DNA from: Sphaerolaimus hirsutus
Taxonomy: Eukaryota > Nematoda > Chromadorea > Monhysterida > Sphaerolaimidae
Reading direction: 5' to 3'
DNA length: 64,000 nucleotides
Assembly (NCBI GenBank): GCA_964036195.1
Contig: OZ038453.1
Span: 13,181,206 to 13,245,205, forward strand
The position numbers and the translations under genes were made by a program. This document shows, in pieces, positions 855 to 58,546 of this stretch (its first letter is position 1; each line of letters starts with the position of its first letter). The notes beneath the pieces were generated by a model. The model had not been told where the DNA came from. It did not search any database and saw only the letters and a program-made list of their open reading frames with translations.

Positions 855-1068
855 TAGTGATGGAAAAGCGCCATGGCTTTTGGCGTTTTGCGCGAAAACG
901 CTCTGGCGCCATTGGCGCTCGGCGCCGCTATCTGAAATCGTGCCATGGCGCTTTTGGCGCTTGGCGCCATTTTGCTGTGGCGCCATTGGCGCTTGGCACT
1001 GGTAGTTGAAAAGCGCCATGACACTTTTGGTGCCTGGCGCCAAAACCTTGGCGCTTTTTCTATCACTA
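855..1068. mobile_element. hAT-like MITE, gcgcca word family
   Basis: The ends are tagtgatggaaaagcgcc on the left and gcgctttttctatcacta on the right. The flanks gccagggg (847-854) and acctgggg (1069-1076) match at 6 of 8 bases, consistent with an eroded 8-bp target duplication. The body is almost entirely gcgccatggcgc and ggcgcttggcgcc words. There is no coding capacity. Confidence 0.75.
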
Positions 1069-1076
1069 ACCTGGGG

Positions 1077-1596
1077 TTATACAAGATTGTATCAATTTTC
1101 AGCGAACTTTTATCAAACTTGTGTTTAAACCCAGGTGTTAGGTAAATGGGGGGTGCTATACATGGAAAAATTGAAAAACATAGTTTTTATGACTTATAAG
1201 GTTAACACGGTAAGAAAAGCTCTTCATTAACAATGTATTTATGACATTTCACATTAACATGTTAACAATAGCATGATATTAACATTTTACTTATGACTTT
1301 TTGTAATTTGTGTTAGAAAAGCACCAGAAAAATCCATTCATGTAGTGCAATCAACATTCAACCAAACAAAACAGCAAAATAACAGCATCAAAATTCCGTG
1401 CTCTTTCATTTCCTAAATACTAACATCCCTACATATTTATCTTTTTTTGGTTCCCAGCGCGGAGCCAATTCAATGGAAAAAAATGTGCATGCGTGCCACA
1501 CGTGGAATTACAATAAGTGGCGCCACACACAATATTCAAACCATTCAATCTTTTGAAACCTAGCATAGCACCCCCGTGGTGCTATAAAACTATATA
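1077..1596. other. Unassigned intergenic sequence
   Basis: This is AT-rich sequence with no convincing exon, RNA gene or element edge. The longest frames are short and lack coding character. Confidence 0.4.
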
Positions 1597-1971
1597 CCGT
1601 ATTACCTCGAAATACCCCCATGGGGGTTTATTATTTTGCCAGCAAAATTTGAGGGGGGGGGGGTTAATTCAAGGGGGTGTGTGTTCATTCGAGGGTTTTT
1701 TTATATTATTTCGCCAGAAATTTTTGTAAGTTTCATAGTAAATAGTAGGCATTTGCATACCAAAACAGGTAATAAATGTTTCCAAACAGGAGACATTTGT
1801 ACAATAAAACATTGATAGCTACACAAATTAGTCTATGCGTAGTTGCAATGCAAATTAACAGTAATATACATCATGTACATTGCATACATGACGTATTTAT
1901 CATGTACATGATGTACATCATTCCGAGAGGGGGGGTATTTTCGAGGGGGGGTTTATTATTTCCCCAGTTGT
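1597..1971. mobile_element. TA-flanked MITE (ccgtattacctcgaa family), right end missing
   Basis: The left end ccgtattacctcgaaatacc follows a TA. The body has runs of C/G, gccagcaaaattt, and the catgatgtacatgatgtaca motif also seen at 3670, 8822 and 52390. The right terminal repeat is absent, and the element abuts the LINE fragment near 1971. Confidence 0.65.
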
Positions 1972-2815
1972 GTGATATTCTGGTGTTGCCATATGACTTT
2001 TTCAGTTTCAACTTTTTGCACGCCGTCATAATCTCGTCCAGAGTTATGTCATGGTAAAGGTATGCCTTATCTCTGGACATGATTACGTTTCTAAGCATCT
2101 TATCCTGCGTAATCTCTGGACTCATTGGGTTTGGTGTCTGAATCTGATTCCAAAAGCTAGTCAGGATTTGACGTAGTTCTTGCGTTGTTCTGGCGACTGT
2201 TCCATTCTCAAAGTGGAGCATGGCATACTTAATGCCTAGTTCTCTGAATCTTTTTGCAAGCCTGTAGAGATCCGTTTCTACCCCAGACATTTCAAGCTCT
2301 TTGTCCAATGACTTCCTTATTTGTTGCATTTTATGGTCTGGTTCTGCCAATGACATTTTCTTTTTCTCGTGCCTTTTCAATGTTCTAAATTCTTCAGAGT
2401 AGCTTACCCTCGTGTAGGCAGCGGCGTAGCCTATTGATATCCTGTTTTGACTTGTTTATCGTCTTAGTCACCGGCGAGATCTTAGGTTTTCTGTCCTGAC
2501 TCTTGAAATTCACAGCCGCTACCTCTGTTAGTGTTGCCAATAATCTCTGGTAGGAGTTGATTGGGACAGGAATTTGTGCCAGGTGGTTCTCTAGTTTCTC
2601 AGAGTACTTTACTGAGTTCTTGAGACCTATTACTGACCAATCTGCGGATTTTGCTTGTGAATGCAATGGTATATGGAGCATAAATGTTTTGAGATGAAGT
2701 GCGTAGTGGTCGGAAAGTAACAATCTACCACACACCCCATTTGTTAGTTCCAGTGTGTACTCGTGAGCTTTTGTCGCATCCATTAGCACCAGGTCGAGCA
2801 ATGTCCTGTAATCCT
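1972..2815 (-). pseudogene. Non-LTR retrotransposon (LINE) fragment: endonuclease end and start of reverse transcriptase
   Basis: Two minus-strand frames lie end to end. The first (2801-2394) contains LDLVLMDATKAHE and LLLSDHYAL, matching the C-terminal IDLVL...SDH region of APE-type LINE endonucleases. The second (2380-about 1975) holds a charged linker, then ITLDEIMTACKKLKLKKSYG, like the first conserved block of LINE reverse transcriptases. A frameshift separates the frames, and the reverse transcriptase is cut off by the adjacent MITE before the catalytic motif. It is a dead, truncated copy; the clade is not assigned. Confidence 0.8.
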
Positions 2816-3185
2816 TCTACTGAAAATTCTTATCAATAATTGTAACTTAACACTTGCAACTAGCTAATAATACCTACTGCATGCAACTTTTGCAAAGTAA
2901 TGGAAAATTTTGTCACACGTTTTTCATGTTTAGGTCTAATTATCACATTTTTCTGACCTTGCATGCAAGATTCTGATTTTTTGTAAAATTTCTGTAAATT
3001 TTTTTGTAAAATTTTTGTAAAATGGTCCATTTTATTATTTTATTATTATTTTGGAATAAAATAAAATAAAATGAAACAAGAATAAAATTAAAATAAAATA
3101 CATTTTTTTACAATTTTTATACAATTTGTATACAAATGATTTTTATAAAACCAACCCTGCCTGGGGGTATTTTGACGGTGGGTTA
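2816..3185. repeat. AT-rich ttttgtaaaa / aaaataaaat word repeat
   Basis: Short words (ttttgtaaaattt, aaaataaaataaaat, tttatacaatttgtatac) end in ttttataaaaccaaccc. The same sequence in reverse orientation occurs at about 42185-42420, so this is a dispersed element and not simple low complexity. No ends or target duplication could be fixed. Confidence 0.5.
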
Positions 3186-3269
3186 ATTCAAGGGGTATTT
3201 GGAGGAAATATGGCAACATATTGCTCTTCTAAAAAAGCTTCTGTTACGATATACGTGCTAAAACAGTGA

Positions 3270-4108: not shown

Positions 4109-5366
4109 TAACGATGGCAAAAAAAGATTCAAAAATTCGAAAATATTTTCGAATATTCTAATTTTTTCGGAATTTTCGGAAAATTTTTCCACCACTGAAA
4201 AAAACACTTAAAAATAGATTTTTTTTTTTTAAATTCGAAAATTCAAAAATTCGAAAATAGTTTTCGAATTTTCCAGGGAATTCAAAGGACATAATACACA
4301 TTCTTACGTTCTATGTGCTAAATCGATCGATAATCGATACGCGGTGCGTCTGAAAAAGTATCGAAACGAGAAAAAAACGTCAATGAACGTTGAAATGGCA
4401 TCGGTAGCGGACCCATAGCTGGAATCGGGGAAGGCAGTTTAGGGGGCGGGTCGACCAGACTTTGTGTCACCCCATTCTGTTGCACGTCAACCAAATTGTT
4501 TTGTTTCCTTGAATCGTCCCCCAGTCCCAAGATAAGGGGGGTCTATAAAAAGGTGTTGATTTTACATGGCCGAGATCTGGCTGATTGACTTTGAAGCTTA
4601 ATAACTTGGCCATTTCTTGGCCGATTTGGACCGTTAAATATTTAAAATGATCTGCACAACCTTTAGATTCCATTTTTGAGGCTGGATTAGTGATGTATAA
4701 ATTCATTATGCCAATTTAACCCAGTATTTCAACATGTAAAATAATTTTTTCTGAAAATCATCATATAATATACTTCATATAAATACTGGGTTGAATATTC
4801 CCCTTGAATAAGTCCCCCGGGGGGTATTTTTTGTCAGTGATTTTTGAGGGGACTTATTCAAGGGGAAGTTTTTCTAGGGGGAGTTATTCGAGGGGGACCT
4901 ATTCCAGGATTTATGGTAAATTTATATATATATATACATAAAAATCACATAAATACAGGGTCAAATTGACATAAAATTTTTGAAATTATATAATCAGCTA
5001 ATGTACAACAGAATGGAATGACACAAAAGTCTGGTGGACCCCCCATAACAGCCACCACCAATCCCAGCTATGGGCGGACCCAGTCACATAGAAGAATGCT
5101 CAGGAATGCACCAAGTACCCATAACTATTTCAACATAACTACTTAACAGCTTAAAGCTCTTAATTGAATATTTTTCCAAAAAATTTGAAAAGTATGTAAA
5201 AAATTCAAAAATTACCCGAAAAAATTCGAAAATAAAACAAAAAGATTTGAAAATTCGAAAATTAAATTTGAAATTCAAAAATTAATTCGAGGAAAAATTT
5301 GAAAATTCATTTTGGAAAAACACTTAAAAATTTAAATACTTTTTTTCGGAGGGTTTGCCATCGTTA
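4109..5366. mobile_element. hAT-like element with exact 8-bp duplication, attcgaaaa word family
   Basis: The ends are taacgatggcaaaaaaag and tttgccatcgtta. The flanks gagatggg (4101-4108) and gagatggg (5367-5374) are identical. Terminal zones are filled with aaaattcgaaaat words. The middle holds a unique core (about 4310-4760) shared with the element at 13990-15135, and partly with the TA element at 32728-33990. A ctcgaataagtcccc TA-family piece sits at about 4790-4915. Short minus-strand frames in the core do not resemble a transposase. Confidence 0.88.
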
Positions 5367-6158: not shown

Positions 6159-6189
6159 CATAAAGGCACCAGAAAAGTTGGATGTCAAC

Positions 6190-7403
6190 TAACGATGGCA
6201 AACCCTCCAAAAAAAAGTATTTAAATTTTTAAGTGTTTTTCCCAAATGAATTTTCGAATTTTCGAATTTTTCCTGAAATTAATTTTCGAATTTCGAATTT
6301 AATTTTCGAATTTTTGAATTTTCAAATCTTTTTTGGCAATTTTCGAATTTTTTTAGCCATTTTTCGAATTTTTTTGGAAAAATATTGAATCTAAAGCTTT
6401 AAACACAGAATTTTGACTGTTTTGGAAGTGGCTATACTCAACAGACGTGCTAATCTACAAATAGATATGATTTATATCTTTGGCTGGCAGACAGCCAACT
6501 GAAAACTTGTGAACTGATTCACCACTGCACTCCATTTCATCCTGACTCCGAACCAGTTCAGTCAGCTGTAAGTTCACTGCAGACTGCGGTTATGACGTCA
6601 TGATGGAGTGTTACCACCAGAAAAATGTAGGGTGTAATATCGCCCGAGTATAGCACACTGAGCGTACTCAGTGCATACAGTGCTCACTGCACAAAATATG
6701 GGTACTTCTCAAACCAATACTCAAAACCACTCTTTTACTCCAGCGACATTACACCTACAATGAAATCTACCATAATCCATCTGAATAAAAGAACAAACAA
6801 AAAAATGTTCATCATATTTATCAAAGCAATTTGATTAATATGATGAAAAAATTTTATGTTTGTTCTTTTATTCAGATGGGATATGGTAGGTTTCATTATA
6901 AAGTGTAATGTCGCTGGAGTATATCTTTGATCACATCTCTTTTACTTATAAATATGTGCAGTCCCAGACACCTGTAAAATGCTCTGCGAAATGTCAAATG
7001 TTATGCAAAGTGTCTAAAGTCATGGAAATGCTGTGGAAAATGGCAAATATGTTTGCCATTTTTCCAGGGCATTTTCATAACTTTTAACACTTTGCATGAC
7101 ATTTCACATTTTACAGGGCAGTTTACATTTCAACGTCTTTGGGCTTTTTTCTGTTTTGTTTCGCTTTTTCATAAGCACCGCGTATCAATTTTCGTTGTAT
7201 TTAGTACGTGGAACTTAAGAGTGCCTTGAATTGCCTGAAAAATTTGAAAAGTATTTTCGAATTTTCGAATTTTTGAATTTTTTGAAAAATAAATCGATTT
7301 TTAAGTGTTTTTTCTAGGGGTGAAATAAAAATTCGAAAATTCCGGAAAAATTCGAAAATTCGAAAATGTTTTCGAATTTTCGAATCTTTTTTTGCCATCG
7401 TTA
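6190..7403. mobile_element. hAT-like element with exact 8-bp duplication, containing nested repeats
   Basis: The ends are taacgatggcaaaccc and tttttgccatcgtta. The flanks atgtcaac (6182-6189) and atgtcaac (7404-7411) are identical. Terminal zones (6235-6400 and 7240-7390) are attcgaaat words. The middle contains a palindromic unit at about 6620-6925 (tccagcgacattacac inverted as gtgtaatgtcgctgga) and a ctgtaaaatg word repeat at about 6960-7130. Confidence 0.85.
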
Positions 7404-8440: not shown

Positions 8441-10558
8441 ATGGATCCAGCTGCAGTTGAGGGCGCTTCTACGCTGCCAATGAGAACTATAATGCCCTAT
8501 GTGTAAGTTACGGGTGGGTATGCAGATTTACACTAGAAATCCGTTCTGTTTCAATAAACAGAGAGTGTTAAATGGCTAATGTGCAATTTAGTGTTAACAT
8601 CACATTTACTCCCGTGGACAAGATCCCCGCGGCCTCGGGGTGTTGTCTATTAGCGTTTTGTCCGTGTGGACAGAACGCTAATGGAACACGACAAAACGTG
8701 TTAGATAGGTACCGTATTACCTCGAATTATCCCCCTCTTGAATTACCCCCGCCCCTCGAATTAACCCCCCTCAAAATGGGCCGGGGAAATAATAAACCCC
8801 CTCGAAATACCCCCCTGGAATGATGTACATCATGTATGCAATGTACATGATGTATTTATTACTGCTAATTGGGATTGTAGCTACACATAGACTAGTTTGC
8901 GAAGCTACCGTATTTCTTCTAATAGAGGGACGGGTCTCCAATAGAAGGTACACTTTTTCAACTTTTTTTGGGCCACGAAATGAATAGAAGGGCGGTCTCC
9001 AATAGAAGGTACACAAAGTACTGGAATTGTGCCAAATGCATCAAAAAATAAAAAAATATTAGCGGACGCCGTGATTTAGTGGCTTTCGCCCATTGATTTT
9101 GTGCTATTTTAACATCAAACGTTGAATGAACCCTATGTATCGTCATTCAATGAACTGTCTGTGACGTAACACTTAGAAAAACCTTTGCCGAACTGGAAAA
9201 GGATTAGCTGAAAAGTTGACGAAGAGAATAGAAGGGCAGTCTCCAATAGAAGGGCGTCTCCAATAGAAGGGCGGGTAAAAAAGTTGACGAAAAAAATAGA
9301 GGGTCGCCCGTCTATTAGAAGAAATACGGTATATATGTTTTTATGTCCAAATATATCCTGTTTATACACATTTTTTACCTGTTTTGGGTACGCAAATGCC
9401 TATTTTTTACTACGATTTTTATGAAAATTTCTGACGAAATAATAAAAAAAACCTTCGAATACCCCCCTGGAATTACCCCCCCTCAAATTTTGCTTGCAGA
9501 ATAATAAACCCCCAGATGTGTTAGATAGATACTACTTGCGCTCAAAACAAATTTACCACTTTTGGAACTATTGGTTGTCAACTAAACTGTGTGTAAGCAA
9601 AATTAATGAATCGTGGGTATCCGATCTGATATTCTAATCACCCTTTCCAATTTTACAAAATTATCGCTCTTCATTTCGCATTTTCAAAACAATTCGTTTA
9701 ATTTTTTTTCAAATTTTTAAACGCAGTTACAACCCGCCCCCGGACCCCCCGGCGCGCCCTACCCGCCCTTATTTCGGGCCGGAATTGAATCGTACAATCG
9801 ACGATGCCCTGAGGGAAGAACAAGAAGCGAATGCTAATAGGGATGCTAATAAAGCACCGTGGGTTTTGGGAAGTGGGTGTGCTTGGGATATTTGTTTGGA
9901 AAGAGGGATTTTTAGTTGGAAGTTACTTTGCAATTTGAGACTGTCTGAACTGGTGGTGTTGCTGTAGGTGTCCGTGGCATCAGCCTGGAGAGGGTCAGAA
10001 CAAAGTTTAACCAGTGGAAATAATTCGAAAAGTATAACAAAAAATGCATTACATTCAAAACTGAAAACTACCTATTTATGGAAAAGATCGAACATAAAAA
10101 ATTCTTGAAAATTCAAACACTTTTGCCAGAGGGAGTGTTATCGTTATGAAGTAGCAGATATGTTGAGAAAAATAAAACTAAAAATGGGTCAATAATTACT
10201 TAATCAGTCTTCAAATAAAGGTGAAAAAGTATGGAGAACACATTTTTAGTTGATAAAAAGTCGTTATAAAAACTACAAACTTTTACAGCTGTAAATGTAC
10301 ACATTGGTTATATTTACATAATACATTGTAATGATGTTTTTTTATGTAGTATACGTGGTATCCACCACACCCACTTTCCCATTTCTCACTTTAACATTTC
10401 TCAGCGATGAAAGTGGGTTTGGTCCCCAATGGAAGGCACCAAAAAATAATTCTGGCACAGAGCCAGATGTGGAACCACCTGAAATGTCTGACAAACCTGT
10501 AGATACTGGCTGGGGGCCAATTTGGAAGATTTTTGGTAGCATGGTCAATGGGGAGTGA
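8441..10558 (+). CDS. Hypothetical three-exon gene, about 115 aa, proline- and tryptophan-containing
   Basis: Exons are 8408-8502 (ATG at 8441 in a cacc-ATGG context; acceptor ttttcag, donor gtaagt), 9727-9858 (acceptor aacgcag, donor gtgggt) and 10405-10558 (acceptor tctcag, stop TGA). Phases join exactly (62+132+154 = 348 nt). The protein begins MDPAAVEGASTLPMRTIMPY, then has a proline-rich YNPPPDPPARPTRPYFGP segment, a charged NRTIDDALREEQEANANRD helix, GPQWKAPKNNSG, and ends GWGPIWKIFGSMVNGE. The frame is also open upstream of the ATG within exon 1, so further 5' coding exons are possible. Intron 1 is loaded with MITEs (8712-9510). No hydrophobic segment or known domain is recognised. Confidence 0.7.
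8712..9510. mobile_element. TA-family MITE (ccgtattacctcgaa) interrupted by a second MITE
   Basis: The left end ccgtattacctcgaattatc follows TA at 8710-8711. The body matches the copies at 3572 and 52287. It is split at gaagcTA|TAtatg by the nested element 8908-9329. The right terminal repeat is missing or decayed. It lies in intron 1 of the 115-aa gene. Confidence 0.7.
8908..9329. mobile_element. TA-flanked MITE, ttctaatagaaggg word family (nested)
   Basis: It runs from ccgtatttcttctaatagag to ctattagaagaaatacgg, with TA on both sides. The body reiterates tctccaatagaagg(g/t) in one orientation near both ends. Removing it restores the host MITE sequence (gaagc-TA-tatgtttttatg), as seen in other copies. 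Confidence 0.85.
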
Positions 10559-11002: not shown

Positions 11003-11567
11003 TAGGGTGTCAACTTTCCGTTTTCCGTTTTCCGTTTCCGCTTTCCGCAGGCAAATTTTTTTCCGTTTCCGTTTTCCGGCTGCTAAATTTTTTTCCCGTT
11101 TCCGTTTCCGTTTTTCCAGCTCATTTTCCGTTTTCCGGCAAATTTTTTCAGTTTTTCCGCCTTTTTCCGTTTTCTGGTTCAAATGTCTGTTTTTCCAACT
11201 TTTCTCCACTTTCCAGCTCAATTTTCTGTTTTCTGTTTCAGCCAAACTGGTAAAAATGCATGCAGGTTCTCAATGAAGTGAATTTTTCCTATTTCTAGTG
11301 AGATTTCTGCAAATTTTTTGATTCAGGATAAATTTCTGCAAATTTTTTTCCGTTTCCGGCAAAATTTCAGCAAATTTTTTCCGTTTCCGGCATAATTTCA
11401 GCAAATTTTTCCGTTTCCGTTTCCGTTTTCCGACCTTCCATTTTTCCGTTTTCCGTTTTCCGGCAAGTGCAAAAAATTTTCCGTTTCCGTTTCCGTTTTC
11501 CGGCATGTGCAAAAAATTTTCCGTTTCCGTTTCCGTGTTCCGCCAAAAAGTTTTTGTTGACACCCTA
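11003..11567. mobile_element. hAT-like element with exact 8-bp duplication, cggaaa word family
   Basis: The ends are tagggtgtcaac and gttgacaccctа-type inverted repeats (left tagggtgtcaactttcc, right tttttgttgacaccct followed by a). The flanks ctgccccg at 10995-11002 and 11568-11575 are identical. The body is ttccgttttccg words. It inserted into the preceding ctgtaaa repeat. A second copy in the opposite orientation is at 19705-20248. Confidence 0.92.
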
Positions 11568-44200: not shown

Positions 44201-47200
44201 CCTTATAGTCGAATGTTCATGACTTCAGGTAAAGTTTGGCACGGAATGGTGATCAAACAAGGTTATAAAAGGAGGTTGTTACTTTGGGAGTGAAGTTACA
44301 CACTGTGGAGGTACATGGAAGCACATTACCTCAATATTATATATTACAGCAACATATGTCGGCTTATTCACCCATGGTAGCACATAGAAATGGATGTTTT
44401 GATACTAAAAATGCAACAAAACCAATGAAAACAACCACCAATGTCAATTTGTGTGTGAAATTGCGCGCTTGCGCGCAAAAATTTTGCAAAATACCTAGTG
44501 CTTAGTACTAAAAATTTCGGCCGATGTTTTTTTTTTTAAAAACATTTCGGACGTCATGTTTAAATAAAAAAAACGTTTAAAAAAAAACATCGGCCAACCC
44601 TAATATGGATACATATTTATGTTCATAAATACCTAAATAAAAGGGTGAACAAAGTTTAAATACCGTGATTGCTCGAATAATTCCCCCACTTGAATAATTT
44701 CTCCCCACCAATGATGTAAAAACGGTAATGCACATATTTTTAAAAACAAACGATGAAGCCAGACCGAGCGAAAGGAGCTGTGTCTGGATTGAATTCAAAA
44801 GCATCACATCCGGTGTGCAAGATGCAATGGAATGTGCACTACCAACCGAGACAAGACATAGATGTTTATACCAGACTTGTGAAAGTGTATTTAAGATTAC
44901 CCAAAATACCCGGTTATTTGGGTATTAATATTTATGCTTATGCTTTCATAAAATATCCATTTGCTTTGTTACACTTTCCTGACCGAAATACCAGGGTACT
45001 GGGAAAGTGCACTTTTTGTAATTGCACTATTTTACACTTTTGATAAAGCATAAAAAGGGTATCCACAAAAGCATGACTGCGGGCATGCAGTTATGCACTG
45101 AAAATAGCAATATACCATAAACTCACTACTCCCTTAAATAGGGAAAACACCAGGGGCCAGTTCCGCAAGTAGACAAGTTAAGAGTTAAAAGTTAAGAGTT
45201 GAGTTAAAGGTTAAAAGTTGAGTCAAAAGTTGAGTTAAAAGTTAAGAGTTGAGTTAAAGGTTAAAAGTTGAGTCAAAAGTTGAGTTAAAAGTTAAGAGTT
45301 GAGTCAAAAGTTGAGTTAAAAGTTAAGAGTTGAGTTAAAGGTTAAAAGTTGAGTCAAAAGTTGAGTTAAAAGTTAAAAGTTGAGTCAAAAGTTGAGTTAA
45401 AAGTTAAGAGTTGAGTAAAAGGTTAAAAGTTGAGTCAAAAGTTGAGTTAAAAGTTAAGAGTTGAGTTAAAGGTTAAAAGTTGAGTCAAAAGTTGAGTTAA
45501 ATGTTAAGAGTTGAGTTAAAGGTTAAAAGATGAGTTAAAAGTTGATTTAAAAGACAAATGGGTCATTTGTTGCAGAAGCGCGATACACTGATCTTCAATC
45601 ATATTTTGTCCCCGCACGGCCATTTCGAAACAACGTTCGACGATTTTTTCTTTTTTTAGCGATAACTTTTTTGGATACGTTATTTTCAAATGACATGCAT
45701 ACAACATTGGCACCATGCCAGCGAACAGCCGTATCGATACCAATTTCATATTTTTATATTTTTTTACCATCATTTTCCACTTGTCTCTTAACTCTCAACT
45801 CTTAACTCAACTCTTAACTCAACTCTTAACTCAACTCTTAACTCAACTCTTAACTCAACTTTTAACTCTTAACTCAACTTTTAACCTTTAACTCAACTCT
45901 TAACCTTTAACTCAACCTTTAACTCAACTTTTAACATTTAACTCAACTTTTAACTTTTCTCTTAAATTTTAACTTTTCTCTTAAACTTTAACTTTTCTCT
46001 TAAACTTTAACTTTACTCTTAACTCGCCATTTGTCTTTTTACTCAACTCTTAACTTTTAACTCTTAACTTGTCCACTTGCGGAACCGGCACCAGGTCTGA
46101 GCAATCTGGGGAAATAATAAACTCCCCCCAGTTGTGAAAACGTATTTACGTTTACTCGATAAATACGGATACTCAAGTACTGCGTAAATACGTTTACGTT
46201 TCCTCCCCCAAAAAATACCGGTACCCAGTTACTCGCGTACTTTTTGAAAGTACGCGAGTACAGAAAACGTATTTAGAATAGGCTTTTTATGTGCTTTTTC
46301 AAGGCATAATAGCAACAAAAGGAGAGAAAAGTCCAAAATAAAATCAAAATATCCAATATAGCATAAAAATAAACAAAAAACATTAACTAGTGAATTTGAT
46401 GGTGAAAAAGTTCAAAAAGTAGTGATTTTGAGTGAAAATTGGAAAAAAATTTCCCCAAAATACCCACTTTTATGTTTTCCGGGGACAAAAGTAATTTACT
46501 CACGTCTACTCATGAGTAAAAGTAAAAAATTAATACTTTACGTTTTCTGTACTCACCTGTAGGGTTCAAACGGGATTGACTTTTCGGGATCGGGATCGGG
46601 ATCGGGATTCACTTTTTGAGATTTCGGGATCGGGATCGGGATCGGGATTGGGGTTTCGGGATCGGGATCGGGATCGGGATTGGTTTTTTGAGATTTCGGG
46701 ATCGGGATCGGGATCGGGATTGGCCGGGATTGGGGTCACGGGATCGGGATCGGGATTGGGATAGGCATTTTTCCGGGATCGGGATTGGGTTCTAGGGATA
46801 GAGATTTTGGCCATTTTTCTGGCATTCACAGTTGTTCATAAAGGTCTCAAAACACTGTTGGATGCCAGAAAAGTGCATAAAATTGACGCTGGGGGTTTGC
46901 ATCCACTTTTTTGCATGCAAAAACCTCATTATTGCACTTTTTATAATTTCCACTAATTTTTCCGGGATCGGGATCCCGGACTTGGGAGTTTCTCGGGATC
47001 GGGATCGGGATTTGAAAATTTTCGGGATCGGGATCGGGATCGGGATTGGTCTTTTTGAGATTTCGGGATCGGGATCGGGATCGGGATTGGGGTTTCGGGA
47101 TCGGGATCGGGATCGGGACTGGTGAATCCCGGAATTTCACGGGATCCGGGATCGGGATCGGGATCCCGTTTGAACCCTACTCACCTGTGAGTAAAAAATA

Positions 47201-49765
47201 AATGCTTTACGTTTATGTTTACTTTTGAAAAAGTTCAGTACTTTTCACAACTCTGCTCCCCCCTGGAAATAGCCCCAGTCGAAGTAAATGTAATGAGATT
47301 GTAAATGAGTTTGTATCCATGTACTGCATAGCACAAAAAAAAGAATGACCGAGTTGCATTAGGACATGACTAGTGATGGAATGGCGCCATGGCGCTGACG
47401 CCAATTGAGGGCGCCAAATGGCGCCGCGCCATGGCGCCATTGGCGCTCGGCGCCCTTTTTCTGTGGCGCCCTTGGCGCCTGGCGCCCACATTCTAAAAGG
47501 CGCCATGGCGCCCTTGGCGCTTGGCGCCCTTTTTCCGTGGCGCCCTGCTTTAAAAGGGCGCCAAAAAGGCGCCAGCAGGGTTTCAAGGTGAGTGCTGTGT
47601 AAATGAAAAAAAAGATGAAAAACACATCTGTGGATGATCTAAATTCGCCAGAAAAATGGACGAAGTGGTGTGAGCGAGTGAAAATCTTTTGTGCAACGGT
47701 TCATCAAATGTGTCTGACAGATCAGAAGACGAGAATGATGAACCGTTGAACTTGCAAATCAAAAATCAACAGATTCAAATCGTTGCAATTCCACTTTTTT
47801 GTTCAATTCAAGGAAACATTGATTGGGAAAGTCTATTTGAAGTGAATGGATTGTTGTCAAATGACAATATCCATTGTGTTTGAATTCGTCATGTAGATTG
47901 TATTTTAATTTTTTTGTTCTAGTGTTGTTTTTGTTCATTACATCCTGAGAACGCGAATTAAGTAGTGAATGTGTGTACTAGGGTGCTGTAGAAACTGTTT
48001 TAGCACACGCAGGGCGTTCTATGCACTTATTTATCCTGGCGCCCTATTTTTCAAATGGCGCCATGGCGCCCTCTTTCCGTGGCGCCCTTGGCGCCTGGCG
48101 CCCACTTTCCGAATGGCGCCATGGCGCCCTTGGCGCCTGGCGCCATTTTTCTGTGGCGCTCTTGGCGCTTGGCGCCCACTTTCTGAATGGCGCCATGGCG
48201 CCCTTGGCGCCTGGCGCCCTTTTTTCTGGCGCTTTTCCATCACTAGACATGACTGATACCACCTTTTTACTTAAACATTTAAATGCTTATATTTACATGT
48301 GTGTTACTGTTGGATGGTTGGATATCTGAGCACGTTACAAACGATGGATAAAAAATGGAATTTCAGCAAAATTTCTGGCAAAAAAAATCCCCTGGAGAAA
48401 TTATGAGGAAATGCATATGTACAAAATCAGGGGTCAGGTCTATTATGTAAACCCATTATTCATCTATACCCATCATAGACACATTATACATGCAGGGGTA
48501 ACAAATAGGGCAGGTAACCCTACACTACCTCAAACCGCCTAGCTATCTATCTTTACCAGAGGCAGATTTTTGTAGTTACTTTCCCATGAACAGCCCCCCC
48601 CCCCACAAATTGCCTAGCTATCTAGCTATCTGGAGCATTTTTGAGCAATTTTACCCAATTTTCATCCAAAGTCGTTAATTTTCATACTTTTCAAAATTCA
48701 CCTTTTAAATCACCAGATCATGTGTTTTATTGCATATTTTCAGCATGCCAGGTATAGTAAAATGTGTGCCGGTTCTAGATGCATAATGGGTTTAGATGCA
48801 TAATGGCACAGGGCCCAAAATCAGTTGAAATGTACAGGAAAGTTCAATAAGCATTTGCTTTGAATGTGTATTTGTACTTTCCACATTTTTTTACACCTAT
48901 GCTTTTTAACACTTTCCTCAACACTTTCCTAAATTTAGAGCGTTTATACGAAAGTGTAAGGTATTTTTAAATACTGAGGAAAGTAATATTGATTGATTGA
49001 TGATGATGACACATGTAAAATATTTAATATGCATCCAACATAAATGACTGAAAAATTGCATTTTTTGTTGTCACAGTCGTCACAGTGTAAAAGGCGCCTT
49101 AAAAATTCATATACTTTTTTCCAGAGGGTTTGCCATGGTTACCTGTGGACAAAGTTTTGCACCCTATGAGGACTTGACCGGTGCATTTCCTGGTGCCTTT
49201 CACATAGGCCCTGGTGCTAGCACCTTTGGCACCTTCAAAAAAATTGCACCGCACTGCACCGGCACTGGTGCTATTCTTAAAAATGGCACCGGCACCGGCA
49301 GGGCACCCTCGAAAAAAGGCACCGCACCGCACCAGCACCGGTGCCCCGGTGCCTTTCCATCACTAGATGGAAGAATGGTTCAATCTAATACTGTGTATTC
49401 GCAAAAAGAGTAGAAACTGTGTGTAGAAACGCTCACCGCAATATATCCAACAGAAGAGACGTATTTTCCCCTGGGCCATCATCGAACGTCAGTGCCACGG
49501 TCCAGGGATCCTTACATTGATACGCAAAGTTCCTGCCTCCGAAAAATGTTTTACTTGGCACGATGCCCATCCAAATGAGTCCCTGCGCCGTGAACAGCGG
49601 GTCCCACGGCCAAATTAGTGCCGTTATCCATGACCAAAATATTATGGTAAAAACTGTAAGCACGCAGAGAATTATGAAGATAGTAACGAAACAGATGACT
49701 AATGCCTTTTTTCGATGCATCTTGCCAAGCTGCGAGGAAAGATAACTCGTGAATTCATCCACCAT
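38237..49765 (-). CDS. Polysaccharide deacetylase (NodB/CE4), copy C, intact model
   Basis: Seven exons on minus: 49765-49437, 43638-43479, 41287-41232, 40592-40505, 39274-39179, 38796-38726, 38330-38237. All introns are GT-AG and phases are consistent, giving 297 aa from MVDEFTSYLSSQLGK, or 282 aa from the MHRKK used by copies A and B. Exon 2 has one codon more than in B. All five NodB motifs are kept (TFDDGP, GAHGMNH, RHYRPAYF, DWHW, GLIVLQHD), as is the hydrophobic anchor near the N-terminus. Function is inferred as in copy B. Intron 1 is about 5.8 kb and holds most of the unit-specific transposons. Confidence 0.87.
38896..39154. mobile_element. hAT-like element in intron 5 of copy C (shared with copy B)
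   Basis: The left end is cagtgtgaaagtttaaatac and the right end is tacgctttcgcaactcaa. The flanks cagtctac and cagtccac are the same as for the copy B insertion at 21113-21629. A worn TA-family MITE (gaataattcccccc words) lies inside. Confidence 0.8.
39514..40282. mobile_element. gaggagtttg-ended element, 4-bp AAAT duplication, tandem gataacgagtttcgg words
   Basis: It starts gaggagtttgattccgaaac and ends gttacggaaccaaacgcctc. The flanks AAAT at 39510-39513 and 40283-40286 match, and copy B shows the empty site (ataaatacgtttt near 22000). The body holds at least five tgcagataacgagtttcggg-type units of about 30-40 bp and the nested TA MITE 39966-40081. Intron 4 of copy C. Confidence 0.87.
39966..40081. 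mobile_element. Nested 116-bp TA-flanked MITE
   Basis: It runs from ccgtattacctcgaaatacc to tttgaggaaatacgg, with TA on both sides. It contains long G runs. Confidence 0.83.
40646..40820. mobile_element. ggccagttccgc-family MITE, 3-bp CTG duplication
   Basis: It starts gtgccagttccgcaaaatg and ends ttctcatttggccc, flanked by CTG at 40643-40645 and 40821-40823. Words are gaagtgaaatggcaa. It lies in intron 3 of copy C, directly upstream of exon 4. Confidence 0.82.
41302..41921. mobile_element. 620-bp element with about 30-bp inverted repeats and 4-bp ATTT duplication
   Basis: It starts gaggcgtctaattctaaaag and ends cttttagaattggacgcctc. The flanks ATTT at 41298-41301 and 41922-41925 match, with the empty site gcatttctcatgttcac in copy B. 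The word ggacttgtcgac(t/c)t recurs about six times. It inserted 14 bp upstream of exon 3 in copy C, in the splice-acceptor region. Confidence 0.9.
41960..42420. repeat. TA-family MITE piece plus AT-rich repeat
   Basis: ccgtatttcctctaaatacc at 41962 is a left end, followed by the gaacacacgt core, with no right end. Positions 42185-42420 are the inverted counterpart of the AT-rich repeat at 2816-3185. Confidence 0.55.
42443..42556. mobile_element. Minimal 114-bp TA-flanked MITE
   Basis: It runs from ccgtatatcctcgaataagt to tcaaggatatacgg, with TA on both sides and ggggagttattc words inside. Intron 2 of copy C. Confidence 0.85.
42557..43132. other. Intron 2 of copy C: AT-rich tacaaaatt words and C-rich tract
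   Basis: Positions 42790-42990 repeat tacaaaattgt and ttttattttat words. Positions 43040-43130 contain C and G runs and a right TA-family end, aggaaatacggta. No exon is seen. Confidence 0.45.
43133..43431. mobile_element. TA-family MITE, tactcgaataattc subfamily
   Basis: It starts after ggta with tttactcgaataattctcg and ends attagtcgtgtaaatacgg before TA. Internal words are ccctcaaataattccc. The core atttgaacaaaaatgg is shared with 13085-13200. Confidence 0.6.
43730..43825. mobile_element. Minimal TA-family MITE in intron 1 of copy C
   Basis: It runs from cccgtatttcttcgaatacc to tttcgaggtaatacgg, followed by TA. The left TA is replaced by tc. Confidence 0.65.
43962..44602. mobile_element. 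hAT-like element (tagggttgg ends), exact 8-bp duplication
   Basis: It starts tagggttggaaaaaaaacg and ends catcggccaacccta. The flanks atatggat at 43954-43961 and 44603-44610 are identical. Terminal zones are aaaacgttttttt words. The 450-bp core is unique, with a 73-codon plus frame (44284-44505) of no recognised similarity. Confidence 0.9.
44603..45153. other. Intron 1 of copy C: ttgaataat-ccccc fragment and a gtatttaagattac word element
   Basis: Positions 44660-44720 contain ccgtgattgctcgaataatt, a TA-family left end. Positions 44868-45055 start cagacttgtgaaagtgtatt, a diverged member of the cagagttg family. Paralogous sequence in B is at 24380-24465. No exon is supported. Confidence 0.5.
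45154..46091. mobile_element. 938-bp fold-back element, gagttaaaagtt words, 3-bp CAG duplication
   Basis: It starts gggccagttccgcaagtaga and ends cacttgcggaaccggcac, flanked by CAG at 45151-45153 and 46092-46094. Copy B has the empty site aacaccaggtctgagc near 25787. The left arm (about 380 bp) repeats gttaagagttgagttaaa; the right arm is its inverse. The 230-bp centre contains a minus frame (45773-45516, MMVKKYKNMKLVSIRLFAGM...) that may be a remnant of a protein; no family is recognised. Confidence 0.92.
46130..47255. mobile_element. hAT-like element (agttgtg / cacaactctg ends) hosting another hAT-like element
   Basis: The flanks ctcccccc at 46122-46129 and 47256-47263 are identical, and copy B shows the empty site (aataatccccctggaaatagc) near 25815. 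Its own body is gtttactc/acgttttctg words. The element 46560-47179 lies inside it. Confidence 0.85.
46560..47179. mobile_element. hAT-like element, gggatc word family, exact 8-bp duplication
   Basis: It starts tagggttcaaacgggattg and ends gatcccgtttgaacccta. The flanks ctcacctg at 46552-46559 and 47180-47187 are identical. It is inverted relative to 29487-30101 and has the same central core (ctcaaaacactgttggatgc). Confidence 0.94.
47371..48245. mobile_element. hAT-like element, gcgccc/gcgcca family, exact 8-bp duplication, with core frames
   Basis: It starts tagtgatggaatggcgcc and ends ggcgcttttccatcacta. The flanks gacatgac at 47363-47370 and 48246-48253 are identical. Two gcgcca arrays surround a 400-bp core with two overlapping plus frames: 47602-47749 (MKKKMKNTSVDDLNSPEKW...) and 47689-47883, ending FEVNGLLSNDNIHCV. 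The tail loosely recalls the hAT C-terminal dimerisation end, but this is weak. Confidence 0.9.
48254..49130. other. Intron 1 of copy C: residual intron and tagctatc repeat
   Basis: Positions 48254-48430 align with 25935-26125 of copy B. Positions 48540-48680 carry tagctatctagctatctgg words related to 7730-8215 and 52810-53040. The rest is AT-rich, with no exon. Confidence 0.5.
49131..49367. mobile_element. caccgg word family, right end of a hAT-like element
   Basis: The body is ggcaccgcaccggcaccgg words ending ggtgcctttccatcacta. It is preceded by an unrelated gagggtttgccatggtta terminus. The left caccgg terminus is missing. It lies about 70 bp inside intron 1 of copy C. Confidence 0.6.
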
Positions 49766-50849: not shown

Positions 50850-52195
50850 TAGTGATGTTAAAGGCACCGGGAAAAATGGCACCGCACCGCACCGGCACCT
50901 TTGCCAACGCATGAAAAGGGCACCTGGCACCCTGGGGCACCGGCCAGAAAATGGCACCGCACCGCACCGGCACCGGTGCCTTTTGGAAAAAATGGCACCG
51001 GCACCGAAGGGCACCGGCGGCTTGCCGGTGCTAGCACCGAAAGGCACCGCACCGGGCTGGAATTTCTGAAGTAGATATCGGGCAGTTTCTCAGTGGTCTC
51101 ACCTTTGGAACTGCATATTTCCATGAATTTTCAACCGATTTTGATGGTTGAGCACTTAAAATGATCAGAATGATGTGGCAATCACTTTTATGAAGCAATT
51201 GCAATGATTACAAATGAAAGATACAATATTTAATTCACTGCAATGTCCATAGCCACTATTGTCTACTGATCGGAGTCGTTGCTGTACAGAGAATGGAACT
51301 ATCTCTGTCATAAACTGACAACAAATTTTGAACAAACAAGTAAGATAAATACAAAATATAAAAATGATTTAAAATTCAACAAAATTTTAGATTTGCTCAT
51401 CAGATACTGTATCGGGTATAATGGATTTCACAGTAGGTACCGTATTACCTCGAAATACCCCCAGGGGGTTTATTATTTCGCCAGCAAAATTTGAGGGGGG
51501 GATAATTCGAGGGGGGGGGTTTATTCGAGGGGGGGGTCTATTATTTCGCCAGAAATTTTCGGAAATTCCCCATACGCAGACGTAGAAAAATCGAACAATT
51601 ACATAGATGTATATGTGTTTATAGGCATATATAACTGTATATACACAAAAAACCTTCCCTAACGTCACTTAATCATCAGTTGTCACGTGTGTTCTGCATT
51701 GTACAGATCACAAACTGCGGTATTTGTCATGTACGTTCACGTAACACTCAATTTTAGGGGGGGGGTATTTTGAGGGGGGGTTTATTATTTCCTCAGCCGA
51801 AATTTAGGGGGGGTATTTCGAGGGGGGGGTTAATTCGAGGTAATACGGTATATTTATTTGATGGGAGGTTTACAAAATAGGCAAAAACGGTTGGGTAAAT
51901 ATATCACTGTTTTTTAAATATGAATAAGCACATACTATGGACAAAATTGCACAGCACATGAAGCCTTGGCCGGTGCCTTTCCCGGTGCCTCTACTTTGGC
52001 CCTGGTGCTAGCACCTTTGGCACCGGCAAAAAAATGGCACCGCACCGCACCGGCACCGGTGCTATTCAGAAAAAAATGGCACCGGCACCGGCATGGCACC
52101 CCTGAAGATTGCAATGGCACCGCACCAGCACCGGTGCTGGTGCACTTCGGTGCCTAGCACCGGGGCACCGGTGCTCCGGTGCCTTTACATCACTA
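50850..52195. mobile_element. hAT-like element, caccgg word family, exact 8-bp duplication, with nested TA MITE
   Basis: It starts tagtgatgttaaaggcaccg and ends ggtgcctttacatcacta. The flanks ttcaccac at 50842-50849 and 52196-52203 are identical. Arrays of gcaccgcaccggcaccgg words sit at both ends. The core from about 51065 includes cacttaaaatgatcag, related to the core of 4109 and 32728. The nested element is 51440-51848. Confidence 0.92.
51440..51848. mobile_element. TA-flanked MITE, ccgtattacctcgaa family (nested)
   Basis: It runs from ccgtattacctcgaaatacc to aattcgaggtaatacgg, with TA on both sides. It is 409 bp and the uninterrupted sister of 13525-15435. Confidence 0.88.
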
Positions 52196-52286
52196 TTCAC
52201 CACCCACTTTAGGATGGGTGTGTCCACTAATATCACTGTCAACTGGGGGCGGGGGTTTGGGGGGGTTCGCGGGGGTTCATTATATA

Positions 52287-52687
52287 CCGTATTACCTCGA
52301 ATTATTCCCCCCCCCTTGAATTAACCCCCCCTCAAAATGGGCTGGGGAAATAATAAACCCCCCCTCGAAATACCCCCCCTTCGGAATGATGTACGTCATG
52401 TACATAAAAAATACGTCATGTATGCAATGTACATGACGTATATTACTGTTTATTTGTATTGCAGCTACACATGGACATGTTTGTGTAGCTAATCTACGTT
52501 TTTATGTCCAAATATATCTTGTTTGGACACATTTATTACCTGTTTTGGTCATGCAAATGCCTACTTTTTACTACGATCCTTACGAAAATTTCTGACGAAA
52601 TAATAAGACCCCCCCTCGAATAAACCCCCCCTCAAATTTTGCTGGCGAAATAATAAACCCCCATGGGGGTATTTCGAGGTAATACGG
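52287..52687. mobile_element. TA-flanked MITE, ccgtattacctcgaa family
   Basis: It runs from ccgtattacctcgaattatt to tttcgaggtaatacgg, with TA on both sides. The core is catgtatgcaatgtacatga, shared with 3572 and 8712. Confidence 0.88.
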
Positions 52688-52809
52688 TAGTCATAGAAGG
52701 GAGGAAAAGGAGAAAAATCGCTAAAAGTAGGTGAAAAATGGCTAAAAATGGGCATATAAGGACATATAGTACCAAAAATAGCTGAAAATTGGCAGTTAGA
52801 TGCATGAAC

Positions 52810-53332: not shown

Positions 53333-53750
53333 CTGTATTTCTTCTAATAGAAGGGTGGGTCTCCAATAGATGGTCATCTCCAATAGAAGGTACACGTTTT
53401 TGACTTTAATTGGTACAAATATTGACAAAATAAATGAAACAGCAGTCTCAAGTAGAAGGGTCAAGAACTGCTGGAAGTGTGCTGAATGCATAAAAATGTC
53501 AGTGAACAATTGCATTTATTAGCATTAGTTCATAGATTTGGTGCTATTTTAAGCTCAAATGTTGAATAAACTCAATGAATTGTCTGTGATGTAACACTTT
53601 GAAAAACACTGGTAAAATTTTTAAAAAATGGATGAAAAAAATGGTAAAATGGATAGAAGGGCATTTTCCAATAGAAAGGTGTCTCCAATAGAAGGGCAGG
53701 TAAAACGTTTCTGAAAAAATAGAAGAAAACACTTCTAAAAGAACCTCAAC
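53333..53750. mobile_element. Worn TA-family MITE, tctaatagaaggg subfamily
   Basis: ctgtatttcttctaatagaa starts the element. tctccaatagaagg words lie at both ends. The right terminus is lost. It is shared with unit B at 28730-29030, so it predates the duplication. Confidence 0.6.
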
Positions 53751-53938: not shown

Positions 53939-54218
53939 TAGTGATGTAAAAAGCGCCAGAACTTTTGCGCCAAGCGCCAATAGCGCGATGGCGCTTTTCC
54001 GGTCACTAGCGCCAAGCGCCAAAGGCGCCACAGCAAAAAGGCGCCAAGCGCCAGAAGCGCCAGCGCCAGACATTGTGTTTTTGGCGACAGGTAAATATAG
54101 CGCCAAACGCCAAAAGCGCCATGGCGCTTTTTGTATGCATGTCGCCAAGCGCCAATTATGTATGCATGGCGCCTTTTTGCTTTGGCACTGCTAGCGCCAT
54201 GGCGCTTTTACATCACTA
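53939..54218. mobile_element. hAT-like MITE, gcgcca family; empty site visible in unit B
   Basis: It starts tagtgatgtaaaaagcgcc and ends ggcgcttttacatcacta. The flanks ggtatggg (53931-53938) and gctatggg (54219-54226) match at 7 of 8. Unit B has aaatacgggttatgggcatg uninterrupted near 29395. Confidence 0.9.
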
Positions 54219-56110: not shown

Positions 56111-56134
56111 CACTTCTACATCCCCTACTTCTAA

Positions 56135-57025
56135 CAGTGTTGTTCAAATACTGGTATTTTTAGAAAACGTAAACGTAAATGTCAATACCTTTTTCAAATC
56201 CAAAGTATAATACTAATACATAAGGTATTTTTAAAATACCAAGGAATACGTGTAAAAAAACGTAAACGTAAAAATATTTTACAAGTAGTATTTGCCATTG
56301 TACTTCAGAAAATACCATTATTTTCACCTTTAGATGAGTAAATTTCTGATTTATTTTAGCACTTCATGTTTTTAGCAGTTTTTAGCAGAAGTTTTTAGCA
56401 CTTCATGCACTTCACCATCAACAACAGCGAGCGAGAAAATGATATAACAAAATTTTCCACAGCCCAATTTTCTACCAAAAATTTCAACAAATCTGTCACT
56501 GGTGAGTGTGCAGTGGTCAGGTACTGGTTGAGCTCGGCTTCCATCGCTCTAGCAATGGCATAGTTCGTTAAGGACTCTATGTGGAAACTTTCTGTTGCAA
56601 GCGTGCCGCTAAATCCAACTTTTCTGGTGATTCTGGGGGCAGTCTCAGACCCTGTAAAATGTCCTGCAAAATGTCAAATGTCATGCCAAGTGTTCAAAAG
56701 TCATGGAAAATGCGCTGAGACATTGCAAAAAGGTTCACCATTACCCAGGGCATTTAAATGAATGATGTTTTACTTTGAATGATGTTTGATGTTGAATTAC
56801 TCTTTTGTTTGCTGTGTGTGATGCCGTGTGTGAATGAAAGTTACAACACGTGAATCTGTCAGCGTTCAGAGTTTTTTTTACGTTTTTGTTAGTACCCAGG
56901 TATTTCAGCCAGAAATACGTAACGATATGTAATGGTATTGTCTAAATATGTAAACGTAAACATAAATATAAATACCAAAATACCTGGGTATTTCTGGTAA
57001 ACGTAAATACATATTTGCAACACTG
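56135..57025. mobile_element. 891-bp hAT-like composite element, exact 8-bp duplication
   Basis: It starts cagtgttgttcaaatactgg and ends acatatttgcaacactg. The flanks acttctaa at 56127-56134 and 57026-57033 are identical. It is colinear with 24688-25641, including the internal ctgtaaaatgtcctgcaaaa section at 56650-56760. Confidence 0.9.
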
Positions 57026-57180
57026 ACTTCTAAATACTTCTATGGAAAGACAGAAATAAATCACTAGAACCGGAAAAAAATCGTCTGTTTACTAGAGACT
57101 GAACCAACACATTAATCATTGGATGAAACTATAGATAAGCCAGAATCGCTGTTGCCTGGCAGCTCTTAGATACCTAATTG

Positions 57181-57279
57181 TAGTGATGTAAAGAGCGCCA
57201 GGCCAAGCGCCAAAGGAGTCATGGTGCTTTTCTGACCCGCAGCGCCAAGCGCCAGCGCCATGGCGCTTTCACACCACTA
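57181..57279. mobile_element. 99-bp hAT-like MITE, gcgcca family
   Basis: It starts tagtgatgtaaagagcgcc and ends ggcgctttcacaccacta. The flanks cctaattg and cctaacta match at 6 of 8. Confidence 0.72.
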
Positions 57280-57617
57280 CCTAACTACATTCATGCTATA
57301 GGGAAGTGAGGGGTTATATTTTTTATGTAGTTTTTCCAGCTCACTCGGACGACGGTATTTTTCGAATTCGATGGATAAATTCAAGAAAGTACGGTAAATA
57401 TACACATTACTCACGAAACATATAACATTTTTGTCCCGTTACTTGCATACTAAACGCATACGTTACTTGCATAAAATACCTACATATTACTTTTGTTGCT
57501 TAAAAACAAGTACAATTCATGTGTGAGTGACGCTAACAAACTCGAAAATCTATAACGTCTAAAAATACGATAAAAACGCATGTCCACAATGTCACAATGG
57601 AGAACACAAATGCATAC

Positions 57618-57947
57618 CGTATTTTCTCGGAACCCCCCCCCCCTGAAACCCCCACTCGAAATCCCCCCCCCCAATTTAGTGTATAGAGAACCGTGTTTAT
57701 ACCATCTACATATGTACTCATAGAGAGTCTATCAGTGTACCGTTTATAGAGTCTTATACATGGCAGTTTTTGTTGCATTTTTCGACGTCTGCACAGTGCG
57801 CACGTTTCAAAAAACAATTAAGTACTGGGATATCAAAAAATTTCTGGCGAAATAATAACCCCCCTCGAAATAACCCCCTCGTTTAACCCCCTCTCAAAAA
57901 TCTCACTCTGAAAAAAAAACCCCCGGGGGGTATTTGGAGGAAATATG
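57618..57947. mobile_element. TA-family MITE, ccgtattttctcggaa subtype
   Basis: It runs from ccgtattttctcggaacccc to tttggaggaaatatgg, followed by TA. Internal words are ccctcgaaataacccc. The core (gcatttttcgacgtctgc) is shared with 18740-18765. Confidence 0.7.
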
Positions 57948-58078
57948 GTACCTAGATATAAAACAAGTGGAACCAACGATAACATGGAAAAAGGCAACGG
58001 CAATTCTTCACGATCAGCACAATGTATTTTTAGGTAAAGCAATGGTCGGTATTTTATGTATTTATATCTACTGAAAAC

Positions 58079-58546
58079 TGACGATGGAAAACTGTCTGGA
58101 AAAAAGTGCTTAAATGTTTTTTTACATAATTTTTGCCTCTAATTTCTTGTGATATTTTTAGAACACTTCAAAGTTGTTTTTTTAAATGAACCAAATTTTT
58201 TCACTGCTAAATTATTTCAAGTCAATTTTAATACCTTGCAGTCCTCAAAACTGTTTTCGCAGGCTCGTTTGAGCTTTCTTGCTGCACAAATTCCAAATGA
58301 AATTCAAGTTTGGAATTTTGTTTATGCGCTTATTTCAAACATTTTCATGCATTTTCAACAGAAAATACTGAAAAAATCTTAAACAGTTTTGGAATTGCCG
58401 AATTTTTTCTAGAAAACATTACTTTTATGTGTTTTTCTAGTGATGGAATCGAAAAGTCGTATGTTTCGGTTAATTTACCGAAAAGTCCAGCAACAGGAAT
58501 GGTTTAAAAAGTCAACAAAAAAATGAATATTTCTTTGCCATCGTTA
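58079..58546. mobile_element. hAT-like element with exact 8-bp duplication, little word expansion
   Basis: It starts tgacgatggaaaactgtctg and ends ttctttgccatcgtta. The flanks ctgaaaac at 58071-58078 and 58547-58554 are identical. The body is largely non-repetitive and AT-rich; the plus frames (58149-58507) show no known domain. Confidence 0.87.

Follow-up and report, generated by a model that had tools for sequence, protein, structure and literature searches.

In maize Ac, each end carries about 200 bp with repeated AAACGG hexamers that are bound by the transposase, and many non-autonomous members keep them (PMC3260210). The two ends of Hermes hold 17 and 14 AAG(T/C) repeats in both orientations, which are regarded as BED-domain sites; in the left end, binding was seen at the first three (PMC10368747). 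The elements considered here lie in a stretch of 64,000 nucleotides of the nematode Sphaerolaimus hirsutus (C4:13181206-13245205 in a genome assembly of 348 Mb and 762 contigs), which is called the window and was read entirely. Many of its short DNA transposons repeat their end words, and on one hAT-type backbone, with the end CAGAGTTG, these words occur in three alternative states.

The soybean CACTA families Tgm1 and Tgmt* combine, in one genome, a conserved terminal repeat with a subterminal motif diverged by 6 bases, and co-evolution with the binding protein was suggested (PMC2613891). In the VANDAL elements of Arabidopsis, the element-encoded VANC binding proteins and short motifs co-evolve, with C-type and T-type motifs in related elements (PMC5735166). 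Work on Herves and on hAT-derived CGG-binding proteins indicates that hAT DNA-binding domains recognise short subterminal motifs differing between elements (PMC3143072, PMC8097297).

The CGGAAA family of the window resembles Ac/Ds in having AAACGG, with 16-22 copies in each of seven elements out of seven; that Ac and this family have the hexamer in common may be a coincidence. The portion of the Ac/Ds report considered here describes no subfamily set with all hexamers re-lettered on one backbone (PMC3260210). The Hermes account, in the same measure, concerns four-letter sites of one element and no word states (PMC10368747). Tgm1 and Tgmt* belong to another superfamily and are two families; the relevant part of that paper gives neither a word-only change on an unchanged backbone nor a genome-wide count (PMC2613891). 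In the sections on VANDAL, the motif change goes with tandem-repeat turnover, whereas here scattered words change and the spacers are kept; VANC function is the loss of DNA methylation (PMC5735166). For Herves and the CGG-binding proteins, the passages at hand compare motifs across elements or proteins, not re-lettered inside one family (PMC3143072, PMC8097297). Among the titles and abstracts listed by searches of open-licence PubMed Central text, which lacks most subscription journals, none was seen to describe separate word states on a backbone that is otherwise unchanged. Against the parts of these papers considered, what is new is the concerted change of words while the rest of the element stays; subterminal repeats diversified under a conserved terminal repeat (soybean CACTA) and co-evolving VANC motifs were already known.

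Word states on a common backbone

The CAGAGTTG backbone is present in thousands of copies, with AAACGTA, AAGCGTA or AAGTGTA as the word (AC, GC and GT below). An alignment of eight copies (four AAACGTA, two AAGCGTA, two AAGTGTA), with 142 bp from one end and 160 bp from the other, gave 276 gap-free columns. Between AAACGTA and AAGCGTA copies, fixed differences occupied 14 of 30 word-core columns, none of the 61 other word columns and 4 of 185 columns outside the words (Fisher p 2.9e-12). The corresponding counts were 23/30, 0/61 and 12/185 for AAACGTA versus AAGTGTA (p 5.9e-19; both tests treat columns as independent) and 11/30, 0/61 and 11/185 for AAGCGTA versus AAGTGTA. Counting word sites present in at least three of the eight copies, 102 of the 111 readable sites carried the copy's own state.

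The same concordance is seen beyond the alignment. A pattern of three adjacent words had 3,397 matches in the genome and none for its reversed control. For each genome pattern the first 100 matches were listed, all of them on contig C1, so that concordance was sampled from only part of one contig. Among the 100 listed triples, 35 were all AC, 25 all GC, 27 all GT and 13 mixed; the 87 identical triples compare with 10.8 expected. Two words with their 24-bp spacer matched 3,220 times (control 0), and agreed in 91 of the 100 listed against 32.2 expected. When five words were read, all five were alike in 56 of 66 elements (0.94 expected). The right end of the set had 2,299 matches (control 0). Of the listed right ends, 65 lie below 15.83 Mb on C1, and for 53 of these a listed left end on the same strand was found 250-1,800 bp away. 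In every one of these 53 joined elements the left majority word equalled the first right word, where 19.7 agreements were expected; it equalled both right words in 50.

Mixed copies among the matches listed, with AT, TC and GG words set aside, pair GC with AC or with GT. AC and GT stand together in just one copy, which also has GC; two further copies pair AT with GT. We infer that GC was the common starting state of the CAGAGTTG set, for which two switches are enough.

The interiors of CAGAGTTG elements (window 24688-25641, L030, L010, L031 and L046) cannot be aligned across word states, as if the filler had been replaced; two AAGTGTA copies have a common interior, unlike cross-state pairs. 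In L002, an AAGCGTA element (688-1380) and an AAACGTA element (2056-2889) lie 676 bp apart, each with a perfect 8-bp duplication, and form a natural pair for the question of cross-mobilisation.

Other ends with more than one word were found by a word-blind search that required only an end of the form [CT]A[AG], arms of 13 bp in which no more than two positions mismatched, and an 8-bp duplication in which no more than one did. It covered 284 kb, namely the window, 20 kb beside it and, spaced regularly over ten contigs, 20 pieces of 10 kb (200 kb in all) at two fixed positions per contig. Of the 40 elements recovered, 34 belonged to word families and 6 lay outside them, as tallied by eye; the 34 have the end types TAGTGATG, TAGGGTTCAA, TAGGGTG, CAGAGTTG and TAACGATGG (or TAATGATGG). 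In this survey TAGGGTTCAA occurs with GGGATC, GATATC or GGACC, TAGGGTG with CGGAAA or CGGTAC, and CAGAGTTG with its three words. An element obeys the own-word rule if its own words cover its body better than the words of every same-end, other-word element do. This held for 10/10 TAGGGTTCAA elements (of 11 rows), 8/8 TAGGGTG (of 9), 8/8 CAGAGTTG (of 12, the four looser rows omitted, including window element 36760, which fails the shuffle test described below) and 7/7 TAGTGATG, which were hand-picked; several same-end sets contain a single element of the second word. The other hAT end types thus obey the rule, and the CAG and TA families do so partly. GCGCCA and CACCGG elements have the common end TAGTGATG, and their word-spacing histograms correlate at 0.725, a value reached by 4 of 2,000 gap shuffles. 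This suggests one architecture with a different word.

Word arrays, element ends and hAT domains

The sequence-only reading had proposed that almost every short element in the window copies its end word throughout its body in both orientations. The words that it named were located, ends were found by motif and flanks were inspected, and 36 elements were scored. Cover was measured with 8-letter words from 40 bp of each end (30 bp in elements below 150 bp) against 100 dinucleotide shuffles of the element's own body. Own end-word cover exceeded all 100 shuffles in 25 of the 36. The remaining 11 were eight TA elements (17639, 39964, 37181, 57615, 41959, 16606, 42441 and 11835), the two shortest GCGCCA elements (19376 and 57181) and 36760. 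One scored item, 50850-51062, is merely one end of element 50850-52195. Mean body cover over the 36 was 0.242 with own words and 0.027 with words of other groups. A stricter control of 3,836 random window pieces had a mean cover of 0.064 and a 95th percentile of 0.254, which only 13 of the 36 elements exceeded; random pieces reach this value because the window is full of such repeats. The shuffle test by itself therefore overstates the cleanness of the own-word signal. Reiteration in both orientations is real in elements with 8-bp, CAG, 4-bp and TA duplications, as delineation and word counts show. "Almost every" is too strong in view of the 34/40 word-blind elements in word families; both the scale and the cause of the phenomenon need revision.

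The supposed extension of the words through nearly the whole body was not confirmed. In six of the seven profiled hAT-type members of 875-1,923 bp (L034, L040, L043, L047, window 47371-48245 and window 50850-52195) they occur only within about 350 bp of an end; the seventh, L030 (1,492 bp), has three additional words in its interior. In three cases, a pair of arrays that looks like two separate elements marks the two termini of a single longer element with a perfect 8-bp duplication (32240-34656, 47371-48245 and 50850-52195), and the division of these into neighbouring elements was rejected on that ground. Since the words are confined to the ends of longer hAT-type members, the short elements are mostly two end clusters fused together. 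The arrays lie between the terminal repeats and the target duplications lie outside, which rules out that they are ordinary satellites into which elements landed. In L034:4156-6078, CGGAAA-type ends and a perfect 8-bp duplication surround open frames of 176 and 197 residues, neither with a Pfam match; the interior is perhaps a captured gene piece.

The hAT dimerisation domain PF05699 was found at 28 places in the genome and in none of 14 control genomes. The DNA 3' of the domain was read at 19 of these places; one more lies inside L057, and eight others are outside the count. A word array was read 3' of the domain at 16 of the 19 places, several of which are near-copies and which therefore do not represent 16 independent families. 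CGGAAA arrays follow the domain at six places (L050, L051, L054, L055, L060 and L062), GATATC arrays at three (L056-L058), AACGTA arrays at three (L053, L061 and L064) with one weak AACGTA-type array (L052), and ATTCGA arrays at three (L049, L059 and L063). At 14 of the 16 the sequence read extends to the terminal repeat. These transposase-bearing elements have about 5-20 words in the last 250 bp of the 3' end read; in 13 transposase-linked rows, scanned for 500 bp, or less where the sequence read ended sooner, no word lay more than 250 bp from the terminal repeat.

L049:172-1324 is a complete element with both ends TAACGATGG, the perfect 8-bp duplication ATCATGCT, ATTCGA words and a 111-residue frame with the Pfam domain at 31.7 bits. 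With the remnant in window element 6190-7403, this places the ATTCGA array and a transposase piece within one element. For CGGAAA, GATATC and AACGTA, the linkage consists of the domain followed by the array and one terminal repeat on the 3' side. An 8-bp target duplication, perfect or with one mismatch, is present at all 34 word-family elements of the word-blind search, which required it; several short GCGCCA elements have imperfect ones. The dimerisation domain lies inside the element in ATTCGA (L049) and is tied to the other three families by domain and array. The hAT assignment is thus shown for these four word families and not for the rest.

As far as the 3' sides were read, full-length relatives do carry arrays (16/19 domains); domains are tied to four word families, and none to GGGATC, GCGCCA, CACCGG, CAG, 4-bp or TA families.

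Elements and other features of the window

Strand is given where it was assigned. The GCGCCA family includes a short hAT-like element at 855..1068 (end TAGTGATGG, imperfect target duplication, own cover 0.56 reached by 0/100 shuffles) and further short elements at 15869..16106, delineated and scored, and 53939..54218, with an 8-bp duplication matching in 7/8 positions. Its 2,417-bp member at 32240..34656 has the perfect 8-bp duplication GTCATGCG and word clusters near both ends only. The 875-bp member at 47371..48245 (duplication GACATGAC) has words confined to the end 200-280 bp or so. The 1,346-bp CACCGG element at 50850..52195 (duplication TTCACCAC), whose end TAGTGATG is common to the GCGCCA family, also has words at its ends only.

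CGGAAA elements lie at 11003..11567 (end TAGGGTGTCAAC, duplication CTGCCCCG) and 19705..20248 (duplication ATCACAAG); both have 32 words, AAACGG numbering 22 in the former and 20 in the latter. The GATCCC element at 29487..30101 (end TAGGGTTCAAACGGGAT) has a duplication matching in 7/8 positions; that at 46560..47179 (duplication CTCACCTG) sits inside an AACGTA-type element, 46127-47255. ATTCGA elements were found at 4109..5366 (end TAACGATGGC, duplication GAGATGGG), at 6190..7403 (duplication ATGTCAAC) and, inside a TA element, at 13990..15135 (duplication CTCATCTT). The second retains a hAT transposase remnant at 6653..6734, 82 bp with 91% identity to the L049 segment coding for the hAT dimerisation domain. 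AAACGTA-state elements occupy 24688..25641 on the plus strand (end CAGAGTTG, duplication CTCATGAG) and, in a diverged form, 56135..57025, also plus (duplication ACTTCTAA).

Among elements with 4-bp duplications, which may be Sola-like, AAAT and ATTT duplications were observed. The GATAACGAGTTTCGG element at 39514..40282 (AAAT, end GAGGAGTTTGATTC) contains a TA element at 39964-40083 and has words throughout its body; the CTTGTCGAC element at 41302..41921 (ATTT, end GAGGCGTCTAATTC) has no concentration of words at its ends. TA elements of one kind lie at 51438..51850 (end TACCGTATTACCTCGAAATACCCCC) and 52285..52689, the latter delineated and scored. Those at 8906..9331 (word CCAATAGAAGG) and 35109..35328 (word ATATTGGAGGTA) each sit inside another TA element. 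TA-type elements with the AATAGAAGG word (9061-9260, 28790-28900 and 53500-53600) share, by eye, an interior centred on gtgctattttaa, perhaps as members of a single older family. In the genome, TACCGTAT ends number 5,822 (control 41) and TAGGGTTCAAAC ends 6,180 (control 7), with a GGGACC-kind word in about 22 of the 100 listed, judged by eye.

PIF elements make 3-bp target duplications. The families with the end GCCAGTTCCGCAA are represented by the GTTAAAA element at 45154..46091 (end GGGCCAGTTCCGCAAGT), flanked by CAG on both sides, and by the GAAGTGAAATGGCAA element at 12641..12857, which has the same end GCCAGTTCCGCAA with a different word, CAA at the left flank and CAG at the right. The PIF/Harbinger transposase domain DDE_Tnp_4 has at least 163 genome matches, and no GCCAGTTCCGCAA end was tied to one of them. 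Many of these matches have an identical score, which points to a recent burst. The one match in the window (59798-60430, C4:13241003-13241635, minus strand) has its frame broken as by introns, and its 173-residue piece had no relatives at E 0.001. As a source of the CAG families the gene was rejected, no common end having been found: its end candidates, left near 58625 and right near 66100 (L009), are of a different sequence and have no clear duplication. The presumed left end (58631-58690) contains AGTTTACTGGCG twice and a third near-copy. A coding-like segment occurs three times, at 49433-49768, 26534-26867 (92% identical to the first) and 17850-18138 (87% identical to the first), with a weak polysaccharide deacetylase match below the Pfam cut-off.

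Probable recognition sites and alternative explanations

In the four linked families the words are subterminal hAT repeats and most likely transposase-binding sites; selection for such sites, which the sequence-only reading had offered as one of its two causes, fits the observations. More generally, the words are probably recognition sites of the element's own transposase, or of another element-encoded DNA-binding protein, that were re-lettered together after a change of specificity. Short non-autonomous elements retain the two end clusters and little else, hence their word-filled look. Subfamilies on the same backbone re-letter their words together, keeping backbone, spacing and outer terminal repeat, with nearly every word altered in the same one or two letters. 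A change in the DNA-binding specificity of the transposase would be the likely cause, with selection then acting on every site. The concerted change would be explained because site-by-site selection follows the specificity change. GC-type words would be the start state of the CAGAGTTG set, and array length additionally drifts by whole words in some families. The concerted replacement resembles the re-keying of a lock to fit an altered enzyme.

Several observations weigh against this account. The classes of the CAGAGTTG alignment were named by their first words, and those sites therefore differ by construction, the other sites not. Nine of the 111 sites are off-state. Five are in the AAACGTA copies, two of the four having GC at the same right-end site and three further sites reading AT. 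One of the two AAGTGTA copies has a GC word. The other three are GT words in AAGCGTA copies: both copies have one at the same left-end site, and one copy has another at a right-end site. The left-end GT site tells slightly against strict purity, the count being small. The copies descend from few founders, so that concordant copies are not independent events and the counts show purity of state, not thousands of separate switches. Beyond hAT the own-word rule is weaker, with 4/6 for CCAGTTCCGC (of seven rows) and 18/35 for TACCGTAT (all 35 TA rows). In the 4-bp-duplication elements 41302-41921, L035:6412-7054 and 39514-40282 the words are spread. No array was present in 501 bp 3' of the domain at L066 and L067, nor in the 501 bp read at L065, despite its upstream resemblance to L062. 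L049 excepted, the evidence that joins domain and element comes from the 3' side, and the binding of the words by the protein is presumed. At the 19 domain places read, no transposase was linked to the AAGCGTA, AAGTGTA, GGGATC, GCGCCA, CACCGG, CAG, 4-bp or TA families.

The other cause that the sequence-only reading had offered was a single amplification process acting across the genome, for instance template switching during gap repair. Such a process, or slippage, would copy the end word in every family, and words would differ between families only because the ends do. Array length does drift by whole words between similar GATCCC copies. Seven of these have 21-46 words over 402-620 bp. Of their 148 gaps of at least 3 bp, 61 are multiples of 6, where about 25 would be expected of arbitrary lengths. 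One-word (6-bp) differences also occur among similar AAGTGTA copies and among AAACGTA copies. In five CGGAAA copies (27-33 words), however, a multiple of 6 is found for 12 of the 48 gaps of this size, little more than the 8 expected; in both families copy pairs are not independent. The spans of 25 GCGCCA arrays in the genome, which are best matches to one window element and hence biased, are 189-190 bp in 14, 231 bp in 4 and other in 7. The scattered words of the CAGAGTTG set stand at homologous positions between distinct conserved spacers, which can be aligned between its three word states, and words end a few hundred base pairs from the terminus. Because the spacers are kept, amplification alone fails to explain the concerted change. 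Such a process is unneeded, given also the arrays on transposase-bearing hAT elements, and we regard it as quite unlikely. Gene conversion between words or elements could spread a new word to all sites, and mosaic copies do exist (AC,AC,AC,AC,GC and GT,GT,GC,GT,GT). Yet AAACGTA and AAGCGTA copies differ by fixed changes in only 4 of 246 columns outside word cores; conversion tracts would need to be about 2-6 bp because the flanking spacers are unchanged, which makes this explanation very unlikely.

Mutation bias of the ordinary kind, without co-evolution and mainly as decay of CpG in a word that is methylated, would turn AAGCGTA into AAGTGTA and GCGCC into GCACC; the first step is indeed C to T at a CpG, and the AT words in AAACGTA copies look like decay. 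General decay fails because CpG is retained outside the words, where the two AAGTGTA copies have 5 and 3 and the remaining copies 3-7, but drops within them from 7-15 to 0-1. Decay predicts both TG and CA, whereas the words change alike relative to their own orientation, and the AAACGTA-AAGCGTA difference leaves the C unchanged. This is the most improbable of the alternatives. By analogy with VANC/VANDAL, the words could instead be the targets of a host factor, or of an anti-silencing or regulatory protein that the element encodes, and would then track the changes of that protein. In the portion of the VANC report considered, the short motifs that VANC proteins bind are not the same in related elements, and protein and motif co-evolve (PMC5735166); CpG is present in 8 of the 13 words named by the sequence-only reading, counted by eye. 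Here the arrays stay within transposon ends and were read on the 3' side of hAT transposase domains, and the hAT subterminal repeats of Ac and Hermes lie likewise in the sections describing them (PMC3260210, PMC10368747). VANC signals are placed in introns, intergenic and terminal non-coding regions in that report (PMC5735166), so that position alone is indecisive; a protein of this kind is unlikely. Co-evolution of the words with the transposase is the best reading, the binding and the protein changes being presumed from DNA.

How a transposase that depends on many sites changes its DNA specificity is, to our knowledge, an open question. The three states, the mosaics and the linked domains would make the steps of such a change across many sites at once readable, and the switch is amenable to word and protein swapping. 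The finding also bears on how autonomous elements may escape the short elements that borrow their enzyme. Several DNA-transposon superfamilies may, as a tentative proposal on which we would not yet rely, have split in this genome into mutually insulated subfamilies by re-keying each of some 15-40 dispersed words in step with the transposase, with backbone, spacing and terminal repeat kept, so that the autonomous element would escape its non-autonomous parasites.

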